A DNA stretch of 8,318 bases, taken from NCBI GenBank assembly GCA_001804165.1, contig MHFL01000014.1, positions 2,652-10,969 of the forward strand, given 5' to 3'. Origin of the DNA: Omnitrophica bacterium RIFCSPLOWO2_01_FULL_45_10 (lineage in GTDB: Bacteria; Omnitrophota; Gorgyraeia; 2-01-FULL-45-10). Shown here piece after piece: positions 2,292-8,304 of this stretch; the first letter of the stretch is position 1, and each line of letters starts with the position of its first letter. Position numbers and translations under genes: made by a program. Below the pieces are notes generated by a model that did no database searches, was not told the DNA's origin, and saw nothing but the letters and a program-made list of their open reading frames with translations.

Positions 2292-4733
2292 ATGTACACG
2301 CGCAACGAGAAAATAATCCCGGTATACATAGAAGAGGAGATGAAGGACTCCTACATAAATTACGCGATGAGCGTGATTGTGGGGAGGGCCCTCCCCGACG
2401 TTCGCGACGGCCTAAAGCCGGTCCACAGAAGGATCCTTTATGCGATGAAAGAACTCGGAGTAGAACATAATAAGCCGTATAAAAAATCCGCGAGGATCGT
2501 CGGGGATTGCATGGGGAAATATCATCCGCACGGGGACGCCGCGATCTACGATACTCTTGTCAGAATGGCGCAGGATTTTTCACTGCGTTATACGCTCGTT
2601 GATGGCCAAGGAAATTTTGGATCGGTCGATGGGGATGTAGCTGCCAGCATGCGTTATACCGAGGCCCGGCTGGCTCATATAACCGACTGGATGCTGCTCG
2701 ACTTGGAGAAAGATACCGTAGACTTCATGCCGAACTTCGATGGCTCGCTCAAGGAACCGACGGTTTTGCCGGCGTGCCTTCCGAATCTTTTAGTGAACGG
2801 TTCAAGCGGGATAGCGGTCGGCATGGCGACGAATATCCCCCCGCATAATTTGAGAGAGGTCATTGAAGCCGTAACATTTGTAATAGACAATCCGGATTGT
2901 GAGCCGAAGGACCTCTTGAAGAAGATGAAGGGGCCCGACTTCCCGACAGGAGGGATAATACGCGGCTTCGAAGGCATTCGCGACGCCTATACAACAGGCA
3001 GAGGGCTCGTGCGGATATACGCGAAGGCCTTCATCGAAGTCGAGAAGAATTCCAAAGAGGCGATTATAATCAAAGAGATCCCTTACATGGTGAATAAGGC
3101 AAATCTCATAGAATCAATCGCCGAATTGGCTCAATCCAAAAAGATAGACGGCATCACGGATTTAAGAGACGAGTCCGACAAAGACGGGATAAGGGTCGTT
3201 ATTGAGCTGAGGCGGGGAGTGAACGCGAATATCATATTGAATCAACTCTATAAACATACCCAGATGCAGGAGACCTTCGGCGTCATAATGCTCGCCCTCG
3301 TTGACGGCAGGCCCAAGGTCCTGAACCTGAAAGAGATGTGTGATGAATTTATAAAGCACAGGAAGGACGTCGTCGTAAAGAGGACGCGGTTCGAATTGGA
3401 GAAGGCCCAGAACAGGGCGCACATATTAGAGGGCTTAAAGATAGCGCTAAAATATCTGGATAGGATAATAAAGCTCATAAGGGAATCAAAGGATCCCCAT
3501 GCCGCCAAAGAAGAGATGATGAAAAAATTCGACCTCTCCGACAGGCAGGCGCAGGCCATTCTCGAGATGCAATTACAACGGCTGACGCACCTTGAGCGCG
3601 ACAAGATCGACAAGGAATATCTTGAGTTAATAAAAAGGATAGAACTTTATAAATCCATACTCGCGAGCGAGAAGAAAGTCTTGGAAATAATAAAAGATGA
3701 GATGAAGGATTTGGGTGAAAAATTCGGCGATGACAGGCGCACAGAGATTACCGCGGCCGCGGAGGAATTAGAAATCGAAGACTTGATTGCCGAAGAGGAT
3801 GTGGTAATAACGATAAGCCACGCCGGATACATAAAACGCCTGCCCGTGTCGAGTTATAGAAAACAGCGCCGTGGAGGCAAGGGCGTTACCGGCGCGGAGA
3901 TGAAAGAAGAAGATTTCATCGAGCATCTATTCATTGCGTCCACGCACGATTACATGCTCTTCTTCACTGACAAGGGCATGGCCCACTGGCTCAAAGTTCA
4001 TGAGATACCCGAGACAGGGCGCCTTTCTAAAGGCAAGGCGATAATAAATATGCTTTCGCTCGCTCAAGGCGAAAAGATAAGCGCGTTTGTGCCGGTGAGA
4101 GAATTTAAGGAAGGCGCGTTTCTGATGATGGCCACTAGGAACGGCGTCGTCAAGAAGACGGCTCTCAGGGCCTATGCCCACCCAAGAAGGGGCGGGATCA
4201 TCGGTATCGGTTTAGAAAAAGACGATGAGTTGATCAAGGTAGAACTCACTAATGGCGACGAAGAGATGCTCTTAGCGACAAAAGAAGGCAAGGCCATCCG
4301 TTTCAAAGAATCTCAAATCAGGGACATGGGCAGGGGGGCGAAAGGCGTTAGAGGGATACGGCTTGGGAAGAAGGACGCCTGTATCGCGATGGAGATCGTG
4401 AGGCCCGATCAGACAGTTCTCACAGTAACACAGCAGGGCTTCGGGAAGAGGACATCATTTAAAGAGTACCGACTCCAGTCCCGCGGCGGGAAAGGCATAA
4501 TAAACATAAAGGTAACGGGCAAAAACGGCGAGGCGGTAGGCTTGAAGACAGTTTCCGATAAAGATGAACTGATGCTCATAACCGAGAAAGGCATGATCGT
4601 CCGCTCTCCCGTTAAAGACATAAGGTCCACTGGCCGCTCGACGCAAGGCGTGCGGCTCATGAGGGTGGAATCCGGCGACAAGATAGCGAGCGTCGCGAAG
4701 ATAGTACCCGAAGAAGAGGGAGAGGCCGAGTAA
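2292..4733 (+). CDS. gyrA: DNA gyrase subunit A
   Basis: This is the DNA breakage-reunion subunit of gyrase, 813 residues. Numbering matches E. coli GyrA exactly through the winged-helix domain. The catalytic tyrosine is Tyr122 in [11 protein letters not shown], and the quinolone-resistance region reads [18 protein letters not shown], with Ala83 and Asp87. The tower and coiled-coil region follows, then the GyrA box QRRGGKG at residues 525-531. This box marks a true gyrase rather than ParC. The C-terminal beta-pinwheel shows six box-like repeats, including [38 protein letters not shown] and GRSTQGVRL. The C-terminus is a short acidic tail. The ATG directly follows the gyrB stop with no intergenic base, so the two genes form an operon. 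No intein or frameshift is present, although GyrA is a known intein host. Confidence 0.98.
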
Positions 4734-4741
4734 CACAACAT

Positions 4742-4819
4742 GTCCCCATCGTCTAGTCTGGTCTAGGACACGAGATTTTCATTCTCGCGACTCCGGTTCA
4801 AATCCGGATGGGGACGCCA
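4742..4819 (+). tRNA. tRNA-Glu (anticodon UUC), CCA encoded
   Basis: The full cloverleaf can be drawn by hand. The acceptor stem pairs gtcccca with tggggac. The D arm is gtct/aggac with a 10-base loop. The anticodon stem cgaga/tctcg encloses the loop ttttcat, with TTC at 4778-4780. A 4-base variable region is followed by the T stem tccgg/ccgga around ttcaaat. Discriminator G4816 is followed by genomic CCA. The 5' half closely resembles E. coli tRNA-Glu (GUCCCC, UCGUCUAG, AGGACAC). It starts 8 bases after the gyrA stop and on the same strand, so it is probably transcribed with its neighbours and released by RNase P and 3' processing. Confidence 0.97.
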
Positions 4820-4917: not shown

Positions 4918-7900
4918 ATGTGCGGAATAATCGGATACGTCGGGAAAAGAGAAGCACAGCCGATACTCTTGAATGGTCTCAGACTCTTAGAGTATCGAGG
5001 ATACGACTCTGCCGGCATGTGTACACTTTTAGGGGATGGCAAAAGAATTTTCCTTCACAAGCTTCCCGGCAAAGTGAAGGATTTAGAGCATGCTCTTAAG
5101 AAAAAGTCGCTTTCAGGTTCATTAGGTATAGGCCATTGCTTAGCCCCAGATACCTATGTTTTCCTCTCCGATGGGAGGATAAAAAAGATAGCCGATCTAA
5201 CTGACGGCGAAGGCGTCATTTCCATCGAACTCCCTAATCTTAGATGCAGAAATTCCAATGAGATCAAAATATTTTGCCATAGATCGCCGCCATATCTTTA
5301 TCGGGTAAAAACATCCTATTTTACTTTTGTGGCTAGTGGTGAACATCGGATCTTTACGGCTGATCCTTCAGGAACAATAACTGAAAAGAAAGTAAAAGAT
5401 ATAACCGATGAATTAATAGCGATGCCGGCCAAGATATCGTCGGTTGAAGATTGCATAAGTTGTAAATTAAAAAGCGTTCCTGTAGAAAAACATTTTATTG
5501 TAACAGGCGCTGGCCGTGAAATACTAAAGCGGCGTAGAGAGATGAGAGGATCTTGTTGGGAAGAGATCGAAAATTCGACAGGCATAAATTCTACATACAT
5601 TAAAAGAATTGAAAAGGGAGAGAGGATTTCTATAGAGGAAACCAGATTAAAGAAATTATCGAAATATTATAATATCGATTTTTCCCCGGAGTTATTTAGG
5701 TCTGAAAATTTTATCACTAACGATGTGACGCTGTCAGATTTTACCAGTGACGAAATAATGCAGATACTGGGATACATTATCGGAGACGGGCATATTACGG
5801 AGCGGATGATTAGATTTAAAGAGAGCGATAAAAATGTCTGCATGACCTATCAGAATCTTTTTAAAAAAGTATTTAATATCCGTAGCAATTTAAAGAAGAA
5901 AAAAGGGCATTATATTTTTGTGATTAGCAGCAGGTACTTAGCGAATTGGCTTAGAGAAAACTTCCCCATTTTGCTATTGCCAGGACCTAAAAAAGATTTG
6001 CCTGAGTTCACAGGGAATCTTCCTGAAAGTCAAATCGCCGGCCTGTTAAAGGGTTTATTCGACGCGGAGGGCGCTGTGGCCACGCTTTCCGGCCAGGTAG
6101 TGATTACCATGACTAGTAAGCATATAATTCAAAAAATTCAACTTTTCCTTCTTAGGTTTGGCGTGCTTTCTACTTATAACGAAAGTGTCAGAAAAATAAA
6201 AAACTGGAATGATGTTTATCGATTGAGTATAAATGATAATGACTCTATGATGAATTTCTATAAAGCGATAGGATTTTCATCCCCAAATAAACAAAGGAAA
6301 CTTTTAGCCCTGGTTAACTCTGTAAAAAATTTTAATTATAAGCATTTTCATCTACCTATAAGATTAGATGAATTTTATCGTAACTATTTAAGGCCTACCG
6401 GCATCAAGGGTTGGCACAAGATACGATTAAAGCCACAGAAGTCGTATTTAACATCTTATAGGCTAGGTAAATTATTAAAATGGATAGATCAAAATGGAAA
6501 CTCTGTAAAGCACAACGAGAAGAAAAAAGAATTAATAAGTTGCGTTAAAAAGTTCGTTAATTCGGATATTGTCTGGGTTAGATCGAAGATTACAAAGATC
6601 CCCTCTCCTTATAGATTTGTTTACGATTTAGAAGTTACTCCTTCTTCTAATTTTATCGGTAATGGAATAATGCAGCATAATTCTAGATGGGCAACTCATG
6701 GGGCTCCTAATCAGGTCAACGCTCACCCGCACCTGGATTGCAAAGGCGAGATTGCAGTGGTTCATAATGGCATCATCGAAAACTACGCCCAACTCAAAGA
6801 ACAATTGACGAAGGAAGGGCACAGATTTAAAAGTCAGACAGACACAGAGGTTATCGTTCATCTGATCGAAAAATTTTATAAAAGCATACCATTTGAAGAG
6901 GCTGTGAGGAAAGCCATTGCAAAACTGGAAGGCTCTTTCGCAATCGCGTGCATATCCAAACGAGAGCCGCAAAAATTAGTGGGGGCGAGGCTAGGAAGCC
7001 CACTGATAGTCGGATTGGGTAAGGAAGAGAATTTTCTCGCCTCTGACGTTCCGGCAGTCTTAAATCATACAAAGGATGTGATATTTTTAAATGAAAATGA
7101 AATGGCGGTTTTAACCAAGGATAAGTGCGAAGTCACCGATTTCACCGGTAGGCATATACCAAAGAGCGCAAGCCGCATAAAATGGAGCGCGGAGCAGGCC
7201 GAGAAGCAAGGTTATGCGCATTTCATGTTGAAAGAGATAAATGAACAGCCGGCTATATTGGAGAATTTTCTTAAAGTTCGGATTAAAGACAAGGCCAACG
7301 AAATAAACTTCGAAGAATTGACGATTAACGACGATGCGCTTAAGAAAATAAAGAATATAGCGATCGTTGCCTGCGGCACCGCATATCACGCGGGGCTCAT
7401 AGGAAAATATGTATTGGAGTCTATCTGCGGCATCCCTACCTCCGCCGAAGTTTCGAGCGAATTCAGATACAAGAACCTCCTCGTCGATAAAGAAACACTG
7501 GTGATAGCGATAAGTCAGTCAGGCGAGACGGCTGATACGCTTGCCGGAGTCAAAGAGGCGAAGAGATACGGCTCTAAAGTTCTCTCCATCGTAAACGTCC
7601 TCGGCTCTACGCTGACGAGAGAGTCCGATGGAGTTATATACACGCACGCCGGCCCTGAAATAGGCGTTGCCTCGACAAAGGCCTATACCGCTCAAGTTAC
7701 GGCCCTATATTTATTCGCGCTTCATCTTGCGAAAGTAAAACATACCCTGACTCAAAGAGAGATAAATAAATATATCGAAGAATTAAGGCGTATCCCAAGA
7801 CTCCAGAGAGAGATTTTGAAAAATCAGGCCGCTATCGCCCGCCTTGCGCGGCGGCATTCCCATTTCGGCTCATTTTTATACTTGGGGCGCTCGCTCAATT

Positions 7901-8304
7901 TCCCTTCGGCGCTTGAGGGCGCGTTAAAGTTGAAGGAGATATCCTACATACCCGCTGAGGGTTATGCGGCGGGCGAGATGAAGCATGGGCCGATCGCGTT
8001 GATAGACGAGTACCGCGCGGTCGTCTGCATAGCGCTCCGCGAATCTAAAGTGTATGAGAAGATGTTCTCTAATATCCAGGAGATCCGCGCCCGCAAGGGA
8101 AAGATTATAGCCATCGCGGGCGTTGGCGATGAAAAGATAAAGAGAGAAATTAAAGAGGTAATCCACATACCGAATTCCAACGAACTATTCTCACCGCTTC
8201 TTGTCGCGATACCTTTACAGCTGCTCGCGTATCACATCGCCGTGAAAAGGGGCTGTAACGTCGACCAGCCGCGAAATCTGGCAAAGTCTGTGACGGTTGA
8301 ATGA
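4918..8304 (+). CDS. glmS: Glutamine--fructose-6-phosphate aminotransferase, interrupted by an intein
   Basis: GlmS converts fructose-6-phosphate and glutamine to glucosamine-6-phosphate and glutamate, the entry step to UDP-GlcNAc and the cell envelope. The precursor is 1128 residues. Removing the intein (residues 74-588) leaves 613, against 609 in E. coli. The N-extein starts MCGIIGYVG, where Cys2 becomes the N-terminal nucleophile after Met removal, and ends at GIGH (residue 73). The C-extein resumes SRWATHG at 589, then NAHPH, the oxyanion-hole VVHNGIIEN and SQTDTEV. Two SIS sugar-isomerase domains begin near residues 812 and 983, with SQSGETADT, KLKEIS and KHGP. The C-terminus DQPRNLAKSVTVE carries the Schiff-base lysine (Lys1123, E. 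coli Lys603). Ser589 replaces the Thr found in E. coli. Glutaminase activity should require splicing, because the intein splits the glutamine-binding loop. No frameshift or stop was seen. Confidence 0.97.
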   Translation: MCGIIGYVGKREAQPILLNGLRLLEYRGYDSAGMCTLLGDGKRIFLHKLPGKVKDLEHALKKKSLSGSLGIGHCLAPDTYVFLSDGRIKKIADLTDGEGVISIELPNLRCRNSNEIKIFCHRSPPYLYRVKTSYFTFVASGEHRIFTADPSGTITEKKVKDITDELIAMPAKISSVEDCISCKLKSVPVEKHFIVTGAGREILKRRREMRGSCWEEIENSTGINSTYIKRIEKGERISIEETRLKKLSKYYNIDFSPELFRSENFITNDVTLSDFTSDEIMQILGYIIGDGHITERMIRFKESDKNVCMTYQNLFKKVFNIRSNLKKKKGHYIFVISSRYLANWLRENFPILLLPGPKKDLPEFTGNLPESQIAGLLKGLFDAEGAVATLSGQVVITMTSKHIIQKIQLFLLRFGVLSTYNESVRKIKNWNDVYRLSINDNDSMMNFYKAIGFSSPNKQRKLLALVNSVKNFNYKHFHLPIRLDEFYRNYLRPTGIKGWHKIRLKPQKSYLTSYRLGKLLKWIDQNGNSVKHNEKKKELISCVKKFVNSDIVWVRSKITKIPSPYRFVYDLEVTPSSNFIGNGIMQHNSRWATHGAPNQVNAHPHLDCKGEIAVVHNGIIENYAQLKEQLTKEGHRFKSQTDTEVIVHLIEKFYKSIPFEEAVRKAIAKLEGSFAIACISKREPQKLVGARLGSPLIVGLGKEENFLASDVPAVLNHTKDVIFLNENEMAVLTKDKCEVTDFTGRHIPKSASRIKWSAEQAEKQGYAHFMLKEINEQPAILENFLKVRIKDKANEINFEELTINDDALKKIKNIAIVACGTAYHAGLIGKYVLESICGIPTSAEVSSEFRYKNLLVDKETLVIAISQSGETADTLAGVKEAKRYGSKVLSIVNVLGSTLTRESDGVIYTHAGPEIGVASTKAYTAQVTALYLFALHLAKVKHTLTQREINKYIEELRRIPRLQREILKNQAAIARLARRHSHFGSFLYLGRSLNFPSALEGALKLKEISYIPAEGYAAGEMKHGPIALIDEYRAVVCIALRESKVYEKMFSNIQEIRARKGKIIAIAGVGDEKIKREIKEVIHIPNSNELFSPLLVAIPLQLLAYHIAVKRGCNVDQPRNLAKSVTVE
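5512..5682 (+). other. Cro/C1 (XRE)-type helix-turn-helix segment within the intein
   Basis: Intein residues 126-182 read like a HTH_3 domain. GREILKRRREMRG is helix 1. WEEIENSTGINSTYIKRIEKG is the scaffold and recognition helix pair, compare the family pattern (T/S)QEELAEKLGIS..YISRIERG. ISIEETRLKKLSKYYNID matches the closing '..S.ETL.KLAK.L.V.' helix. It lies between the N-terminal splicing blocks and the first LAGLIDADG motif, where DNA-recognition additions occur in other inteins. It probably adds DNA-binding specificity to the endonuclease, or possibly autoregulation. The fold call is by pattern only. Confidence 0.75.
5740..6310 (+). other. LAGLIDADG (DOD-type) homing endonuclease domain of the intein
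   Basis: Two motifs mark a single-chain endonuclease: LGYIIGDG (Asp at 5785, precursor residue 290, intein 217) and LKGLFDAEG (Glu at 6067, precursor residue 384, intein 311). Both acidic metal-binding positions are kept, so the nuclease is probably active. The expected target is the uninterrupted glmS allele around the codons for GIGH and (T/S)RWATHG. The region after about 6310 up to block F (KHFHLPIR, SYRLGKLLKWID) is unassigned and may add DNA contacts. Domain limits are approximate. Confidence 0.88.

Follow-up and report, generated by a model that had tools for sequence, protein, structure and literature searches.

We analysed glmS, which encodes the enzyme that forms glucosamine phosphate (GlmS, glutamine-fructose-6-phosphate aminotransferase), in an 8,318-nucleotide stretch of DNA from an uncultured Omnitrophota bacterium (the window). 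From the sequence, we hold it highly probable that the glutaminase loop of the encoded GlmS harbours a complete LAGLIDADG intein, which is predicted to excise itself, likely restoring an active enzyme of 613 residues, and which likely spreads by cutting intein-free glmS genes. We read it as a bacterial homing intein belonging to a known allele, and sequence comparisons give strong evidence of exchange between domains, in one direction or the other. Inteins of this kind are known; the interest of this one, which is moderate, lies in its being bacterial and in the well-sampled record of its mobility. The parts of the gene, all on the + strand, are the following.

4918..8304, +: glmS precursor reading frame, 1128 codons plus stop (translation; GlmS models; match to 4amv)
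4918..5136, +: N-extein, GlmS residues 1-73, ending ...GSLGIGH (aligned to 4amv residues 1-72)
5137..6681, +: intein, 515 codons (1545 bases, no stop), Cys1 to Asn515 (PF14890, PF14528, TIGR01445, TIGR01443; structure model)
5137..5451, +: N-terminal half of the Hint splicing domain, intein residues ~1-105 (conservation of Cys1 and His70)
5137-5139, +: Cys1 of the intein, TGC (read from sequence)
5344-5346, +: block B His70, in ASGEH (read from sequence)
5524..5682, +: helix-turn-helix of the Cro/C1 type, intein residues 130-182, probably an accessory domain for DNA contact (PF01381)
5734..6327, +: homing endonuclease domain with two LAGLIDADG motifs, intein residues ~200-397 (PF14528; I-DmoI alignment)
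5767..5796, +: block C of the nuclease, LGYIIGDGHI; its acid of catalytic type is Asp217
6043..6072, +: region of block E, with LKGLFDAEG at its end; its acid of catalytic type is Glu311
6328..6561, +: helical region, intein residues ~398-475, missing from a second intein type of ~443 residues
6562..6681, +: C-terminal half of the Hint splicing domain, residues 476-515 (conservation of Asp497, His514 and Asn515)
6625-6627, +: block F Asp497, in VYDLEV (read from sequence)
6676-6678, 6679-6681 and 6682-6684, +: penultimate His514 (CAT), terminal Asn515 (AAT) and Ser+1 (TCT)
6682..8301, +: C-extein, 540 codons, beginning Ser+1-RWATHG (aligned to 4amv, Thr73 to residue 609)

The intein and the loop that it splits

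The original prediction had placed an in-frame 515-residue intein with complete splicing motifs exactly between GIGH and SRWATHG, and we observed this to be exact to the codon in the sequence. A class 1 intein has Cys or Ser at position 1, a block B His, a block F Asp motif, a C-terminal His-Asn and Cys, Ser or Thr at +1. The element in the window has Cys1, His70, Asp497 in VYDLEV, His514-Asn515 and Ser+1, and its N and C halves come together as a Hint fold in the predicted model only. Among 113 aligned inteins at the same GlmS junction (GIGH^S, with ^ marking the insertion; hereafter site a), Cys1, His70, Asp497 and Asn515 were kept in all 113 and His514 in 111. The nuclease shows both LAGLIDADG motifs, GDG with Asp217 and DAEG with Glu311, and these acids were present in 106 and 111 of the 113 inteins, respectively.

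The Pfam models Intein_splicing (PF14890; 71.6 bits, cut-off 35.8) and LAGLIDADG_3 (PF14528; 89.9 bits over two stretches, cut-off 22.5) and the NCBIfam intein-end models TIGR01445 (27.5, cut-off 24.5) and TIGR01443 (22, cut-off 15.6) all scored above their cut-offs, hence chance is excluded. The fold of the intein was predicted with a mean local confidence (pLDDT) of 92.6 and aligns with many intein structures, the aligned ends lying at residues 1 and 515, and with I-DmoI over residues ~200-395. The structure-search rows shown were inteins, Hint relatives (Hedgehog, BIL) and LAGLIDADG proteins including WhiA. The helix-turn-helix, with helices at 124-137, 141-148, 152-159 and 168-178 in the model, is probably a DNA-contact domain.

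The exteins are those of a GlmS. The gene starts with ATG-TGC at 4918, so that the ATG immediately precedes the Cys expected to act as nucleophile of the glutaminase, and ends with a stop codon at 8302-8304; the spliced protein would have 613 residues. The precursor scored 816.8 bits with NF001484 and 797.5 bits with TIGR01135 (NCBIfam). As in a GlmS enzyme, which joins an Ntn glutaminase with N-terminal Cys to two SIS domains, Cys follows Met1, and SIS was found in two stretches (178.2 bits, Pfam). Against the PDB, the exteins matched GlmS 4amv, which we take to be the E. coli enzyme, with an E-value of 1.4e-150 in two blocks that meet at the insertion, between His72 and Thr73 counted from Met (His71 and Thr72 counted from the mature Cys). 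In E. coli GlmS, Arg73, Trp74, Thr76 and His77 line the glutamine site. The 4amv alignment agrees with the earlier claim that the insertion adjoins these residues, and together with the profile scores and motifs it upholds the assignment of the intein to the glutaminase loop of a bacterial GlmS. The RGYD, RW, HNG and D.E columns were invariant across 86 aligned GlmS proteins.

The proposed mechanism starts from what is seen in the sequence: an uninterrupted frame, every class 1 splicing residue, both nuclease acids and a site common to archaeal GlmS inteins. Self-excision and ligation of the exteins are predicted to proceed by attack of Cys1 on the His-Cys junction, transfer of the chain to Ser+1 and cyclisation of Asn515. 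Without splicing, the GIGH and SRWATHG halves would stay separated and glutamine-dependent synthesis should fail. Because the glutaminase loop is divided by the insertion, an inactive precursor is to be expected. A lack of glutaminase activity before splicing is plausible and agrees with a model of the precursor: its only segments of at least three residues with pLDDT <50 were the two halves of the loop, 63-72 and 589-595. The nuclease, aided by the helix-turn-helix, would cut an empty glmS, and repair would copy the intein into it.

The source assembly is metagenome-derived (1.43 Mb, 64 contigs, 86.7% complete), and no second glmS was found in it; four other matches were partial, 32-38% identical and in other frames. 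As only one glmS was found in the assembly, the host probably depends on splicing of the GlmS precursor.

Intein and host-gene trees

For careful trees we hand-picked 66 rows from 114 for spread; ten duplicate records were left out, as was a mini-intein (P0096) from the intein trees, and the extein of P0007 is of half length. In the intein tree, the window falls in a 20-row clade (support 100/100) with Omnitrophota locus L034, Methanocaldococcus (L041 and P0069) and the archaeon SCG-AAA382B04 (L035); other site-a Omnitrophota inteins (L045, L046; L056) stand elsewhere. In the extein tree of the same rows, the window belongs to a 10-row clade (100/100) with carriers of the 443-residue intein type, and its host gene nests in a 20-row clade (100/97) containing all four titled Omnitrophota records. 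Candidatus Omnitrophica is likewise the source of the named GlmS proteins that scored best. The best extein match, P0005, has a GlmS 77% identical to that of the window and an intein 39% identical in the Hint-N and nuclease parts. In these same parts, the inteins of P0002, P0003, P0007 and L034, at the same junction, are 60-70% identical to that of the window.

We compared the two data sets by approximately unbiased (AU) tests, in which the groups were taken from the other data set unless self-composed. The intein data rejected the ten-row extein clade (log-likelihood difference, dlnL, 519; p 1.4e-50) and the 36-row bacterial extein clade (dlnL 563), and the extein data rejected the five-row intein clade (dlnL 160, p 3.5e-5) and the 20-row intein clade (dlnL 907). 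Among self-composed groups, a 13-row Omnitrophota set (dlnL 639) and the 36-row clade without L057 (dlnL 398, p 1.5e-9) were also rejected by the intein data. These sequence comparisons show that the history of the intein differs from that of its host gene: the intein groups with the Methanocaldococcus type, and close host relatives carry a different lineage or are empty.

In a tree built with FastTree only, the 113 site-a rows formed one clade with support 99, the outgroups being 13 aRF1 inteins, three read as deaminase inteins and five GlmS inteins from another site (site b, below). The window's element thus has the two properties of the site-a allele: it lies between His and Ser of G-I-G-H-S-R-W, and it is monophyletic with the other site-a inteins. 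The M. jannaschii GlmS has an intein, and the original prediction had wondered whether the present one was a new allele or a cross-domain transfer. The comparison of sites and of separate trees that it proposed gave two answers. The site is the same as in Methanocaldococcus and is common to many other bacteria and archaea, so a new allele is not supported; a new insertion site was ruled out as widely shared. The strongly incongruent intein and extein trees speak for a cross-domain transfer, in one direction or the other.

Occupancy of the site, residue +1 and gene neighbourhood

Of 837 hits in the protein search, 120 were listed, the window's own included. Site a was occupied in 98 of these 120; 16 had no intein and six had one elsewhere. 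Inteins at a second junction, RGYD^SAG (site b), were seen in P0119, P0023, P0097, P0099, P0100 and P0104, and P0119 (1533 aa) also has one at SETD^TE, starting with Ser, which makes three intein sites in one glutaminase domain. P0096 (742 aa) carries at site a a mini-intein of 140 residues without nuclease domain.

From the named-genome scan we examined the best 80 loci of 117 matches. GlmS was found in 26 of them, always with the intein at site a. Twelve have bacterial titles (five Omnitrophota; Yanofskybacteria, Kerfeldbacteria, Elusimicrobia, Chloroflexi and Persephonella; two 'bacterium') and 14 have archaeal titles (Methanocaldococcus, Micrarchaeota, Aenigmatarchaeota, Nitrososphaerota, Archaeoglobaceae and others). 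Within Methanocaldococcus, the site-a GlmS intein was seen in Methanocaldococcus sp. 10A, M. infernus, M. lauensis, M. villosus and Methanocaldococcus sp. SG1. No GlmS was found in the remaining 54 of these 80 loci; in 29 of the 54 the intein directly follows GGQ, which we read as the archaeal release factor aRF1 motif, and eRF1 domains were found in six of the 18 non-GlmS loci scanned. No viral carrier was found: the only match in one scan of viral contigs was weak (28% over residues 205-386), and no GlmS was found in its locus.

Some titles are doubtful. L092 and L099, titled Aminicenantes and Chloroflexi, hold what appears from its flanks to be an archaeal aRF1 with intein and are likely misbinned. 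L069, titled 'bacterium', has a GlmS extein that groups (100/99) with the Aenigmatarchaeota row L037; its title may be wrong or its gene transferred.

Public records already contain intein-length GlmS proteins named GlmS. In the open-licence literature searched, no title or abstract recognisably announced an intein in a bacterial GlmS, and a paper on one may exist elsewhere. For the Methylococcus capsulatus genome, the inteins reported lie in ribonucleotide reductase and a Mu-like phage protein, with none reported for GlmS (PMC517821), and a term search for GlmS or glucosamine gave no occurrence in the main text of PMC7765530.

Among close relatives the presence of the intein is patchy. The 26 genomes of the family search showed a GlmS intein in four (the window's own, G003, and G004 and G021, where it is cut by contig ends) and an empty site in 20; of the other two, G023 ends before the site is reached and G014 showed no GlmS. 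The site is empty in G018 and G009, whose GlmS is most similar to that of the window. In a phylum sample of 384 genomes, seven have a GlmS-type intein at E <1e-140, the next match being at 7e-46; G004 and G021, whose copies are cut by contig ends, are absent from that sample. On a 52-row host tree, made by adding 26 intein-free genes and scored for four states, the window's intein type required eight changes (at least five forced by starred branches), with a shuffled mean of 8.5 and 218 of 500 shuffles as low.

The residue at +1 also distinguishes occupied from empty genes. Among 114 occupied genes it is Ser in 113 and Cys in one; empty genes of the family have Thr in 19 of 20. In the phylum sample, an empty-site pattern, which cannot match an occupied gene, matched 211 of 384 genomes; at least 150 matches were tallied, and among the matches listed (150) there were 130 Thr, 12 Ser and eight Cys. 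Ser+1 is encoded by TCT (window) and AGT (L034) in the window's type and by TCA (L046) and AGY (L040, L045 and others) in the 443-residue type. As both TCN and AGY occur within each main type, the codons point to repeated Thr-to-Ser changes and not to one copied tract. From these sequences, we infer that an intein at the site favours or requires Ser at +1, and that this Ser arose on more than one occasion. In L023 (G006), an empty glmS has Ser instead of Thr at +1, and its next 17 bases, AGATGGGCAACTCATGG, are identical to those of the window; this could be the scar of a lost intein, or chance.

The other features of the window are the following.

3-2291: end of gyrB (named from reading of the translation)
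2292-4733: gyrA (named from reading of the translation)
4742-4819, +: tRNA-Glu (TTC), between gyrA and glmS

The order gyrA, tRNA-Glu, glmS is also found in G021 (L148), where glmS holds a 443-residue intein ~31% identical to that of the window. In G009 (L145), gyrA and tRNA-Glu are adjacent and glmS lies ~7 kb further along. The window's own genome has a second intein (L001:1189-2742, G000:C4) in an IscU/NifU-like Fe-S scaffold protein, the residue after it being the Cys of a CGD motif. Other intein hosts in the phylum (L122, L123, L124, L133; L138, L141, L143) are SMC, split in the N-terminal ATPase part, and ribonucleotide reductase; that of L138 is the B12-dependent type, and L141 and L143 have two intein-splicing stretches.

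Alternative explanations and known systems

Several observations weigh against a homing, cross-domain intein on which the host depends. Splicing, enzyme activity and cleavage are predicted from sequence, models and trees, and the helix-turn-helix (HTH_3, PF01381) scored 24.3 bits, barely above the Pfam cut-off of 23. An intein-free second glmS could be missing from the incomplete assembly. Domain labels are those of the record titles, and most protein hits are unnamed. The branch joining the 12 window-type rows has only 91/76 support, and the rooted FastTree gave no direction of transfer. In addition, the host tree shows clustering of the four states as a whole (14 changes, against a mean of 22.4 over 200 shuffles, none of them as low), of the empty state (seven changes, mean 17.7, none of 500 as low) and, less so, of the 443-residue type (nine changes, mean 13.2, seven of 500 as low); hence inheritance explains part of the pattern. 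The flanking DNA of occupied sites was compared for a co-conversion trace, and no shared tract, thus no direct trace of recent homing, was seen.

It is possible on these grounds, though we think it unlikely, that a splicing-competent intein carries a relic nuclease and that its patchiness reflects old vertical inheritance with many losses and an occasional whole-gene transfer. Any gain can in part be read as loss elsewhere, empty genes cluster on the host tree, and some nucleases at site a are probably decaying, since the block C acid is Asn in four and Lys in three of the 113 inteins; the mini-intein of P0096, at the same site, lacks the domain. However, the window's intein has both acids and a confident two-motif fold, and whole-gene transfer would move intein and extein jointly, yet the trees are incongruent both ways. 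Moreover, loss by itself cannot account for two divergent intein types in host genes that are closely related. Still less probable, in our judgement, is that the intein is kept as a post-translational switch, in which a cue slows splicing and so holds back entry into amino-sugar synthesis. The split loop, with its presumably inactive precursor, and the single glmS would suit such a role, but the sporadic presence in the phylum sample would not, and the unclustered distribution of the window's type is expected of a parasite and not of a regulator under selection; neither a cue nor a sensor can be seen, and the helix-turn-helix is most simply a DNA-contact domain. As for an assembly or binning artefact joining an archaeal intein fragment to a bacterial glmS, the metagenome origin in 64 contigs and the AT-rich composition of the intein (36.2% GC, against 47.4% in the exteins and 50.2% in gyrA) would allow it. 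We consider it hardly credible, with an intact frame, both junctions codon-exact and four related inteins at the same junction, of which L034 is a separate, titled Omnitrophota record.

Beyond a mobile, self-excising intein, one may tentatively picture the glutaminase loop as a battleground shared by Bacteria and Archaea, where intein lineages, divergent and at least three in number, would again and again enter one codon junction and displace each other across domains, each invasion selecting a Thr-to-Ser change of a host residue in the active-site loop, whose scar is left in empty genes. We regard this as conceivable and somewhat on the doubtful side; if true, empty genes would keep a readable record of past occupation. 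In any case, one codon junction of a core enzyme, filled by divergent inteins or empty among close relatives in two domains of life, offers a natural experiment, and the gene set is small enough to make testable the crossing of domains, displacement between rival inteins and the part of residue +1 in limiting or recording invasion. For annotation, a GlmS that is 330-530 residues over-long may simply contain an intein.

Among known systems, the GlmS intein of Methanocaldococcus, a genus of methane-making archaea, is like that of the window in its site (GIGH^SRWATHG), domain order, intein identity (38-41%) and membership of the same 100/100 clade. It differs in its archaeal host, and several are shortened (332-426 residues), whereas the window's is full-length and bacterial. 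The 443-residue Omnitrophota type (L040, L045, L046 and others) shares site and phylum, with a host GlmS up to 77% identical (P0005), but it is of a different intein lineage, with an identity of ~39% over the main domains. It lacks the helical region 398-475, as checked in P0005 and P0010, where only nine and 11 residues aligned there. The GGQ^S inteins in aRF1 of archaea, DPANN among them, are related inteins with helix-turn-helix and LAGLIDADG_3, an active-site motif as insertion point and Ser at +1, but sit in another host gene and outside the GlmS site-a clade (support 99). The best match among solved folds is the TliVMA intein (PDB 7qss, 7qsu), which likewise combines Hint, LAGLIDADG and an accessory domain; the latter is described as resembling a helix-turn-helix (PMC8966425). 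The TliVMA intein differs in its V-ATPase host and in identity, which is 13-20% in structural alignments, with a Foldseek query TM-score of 0.61 for 7qss.
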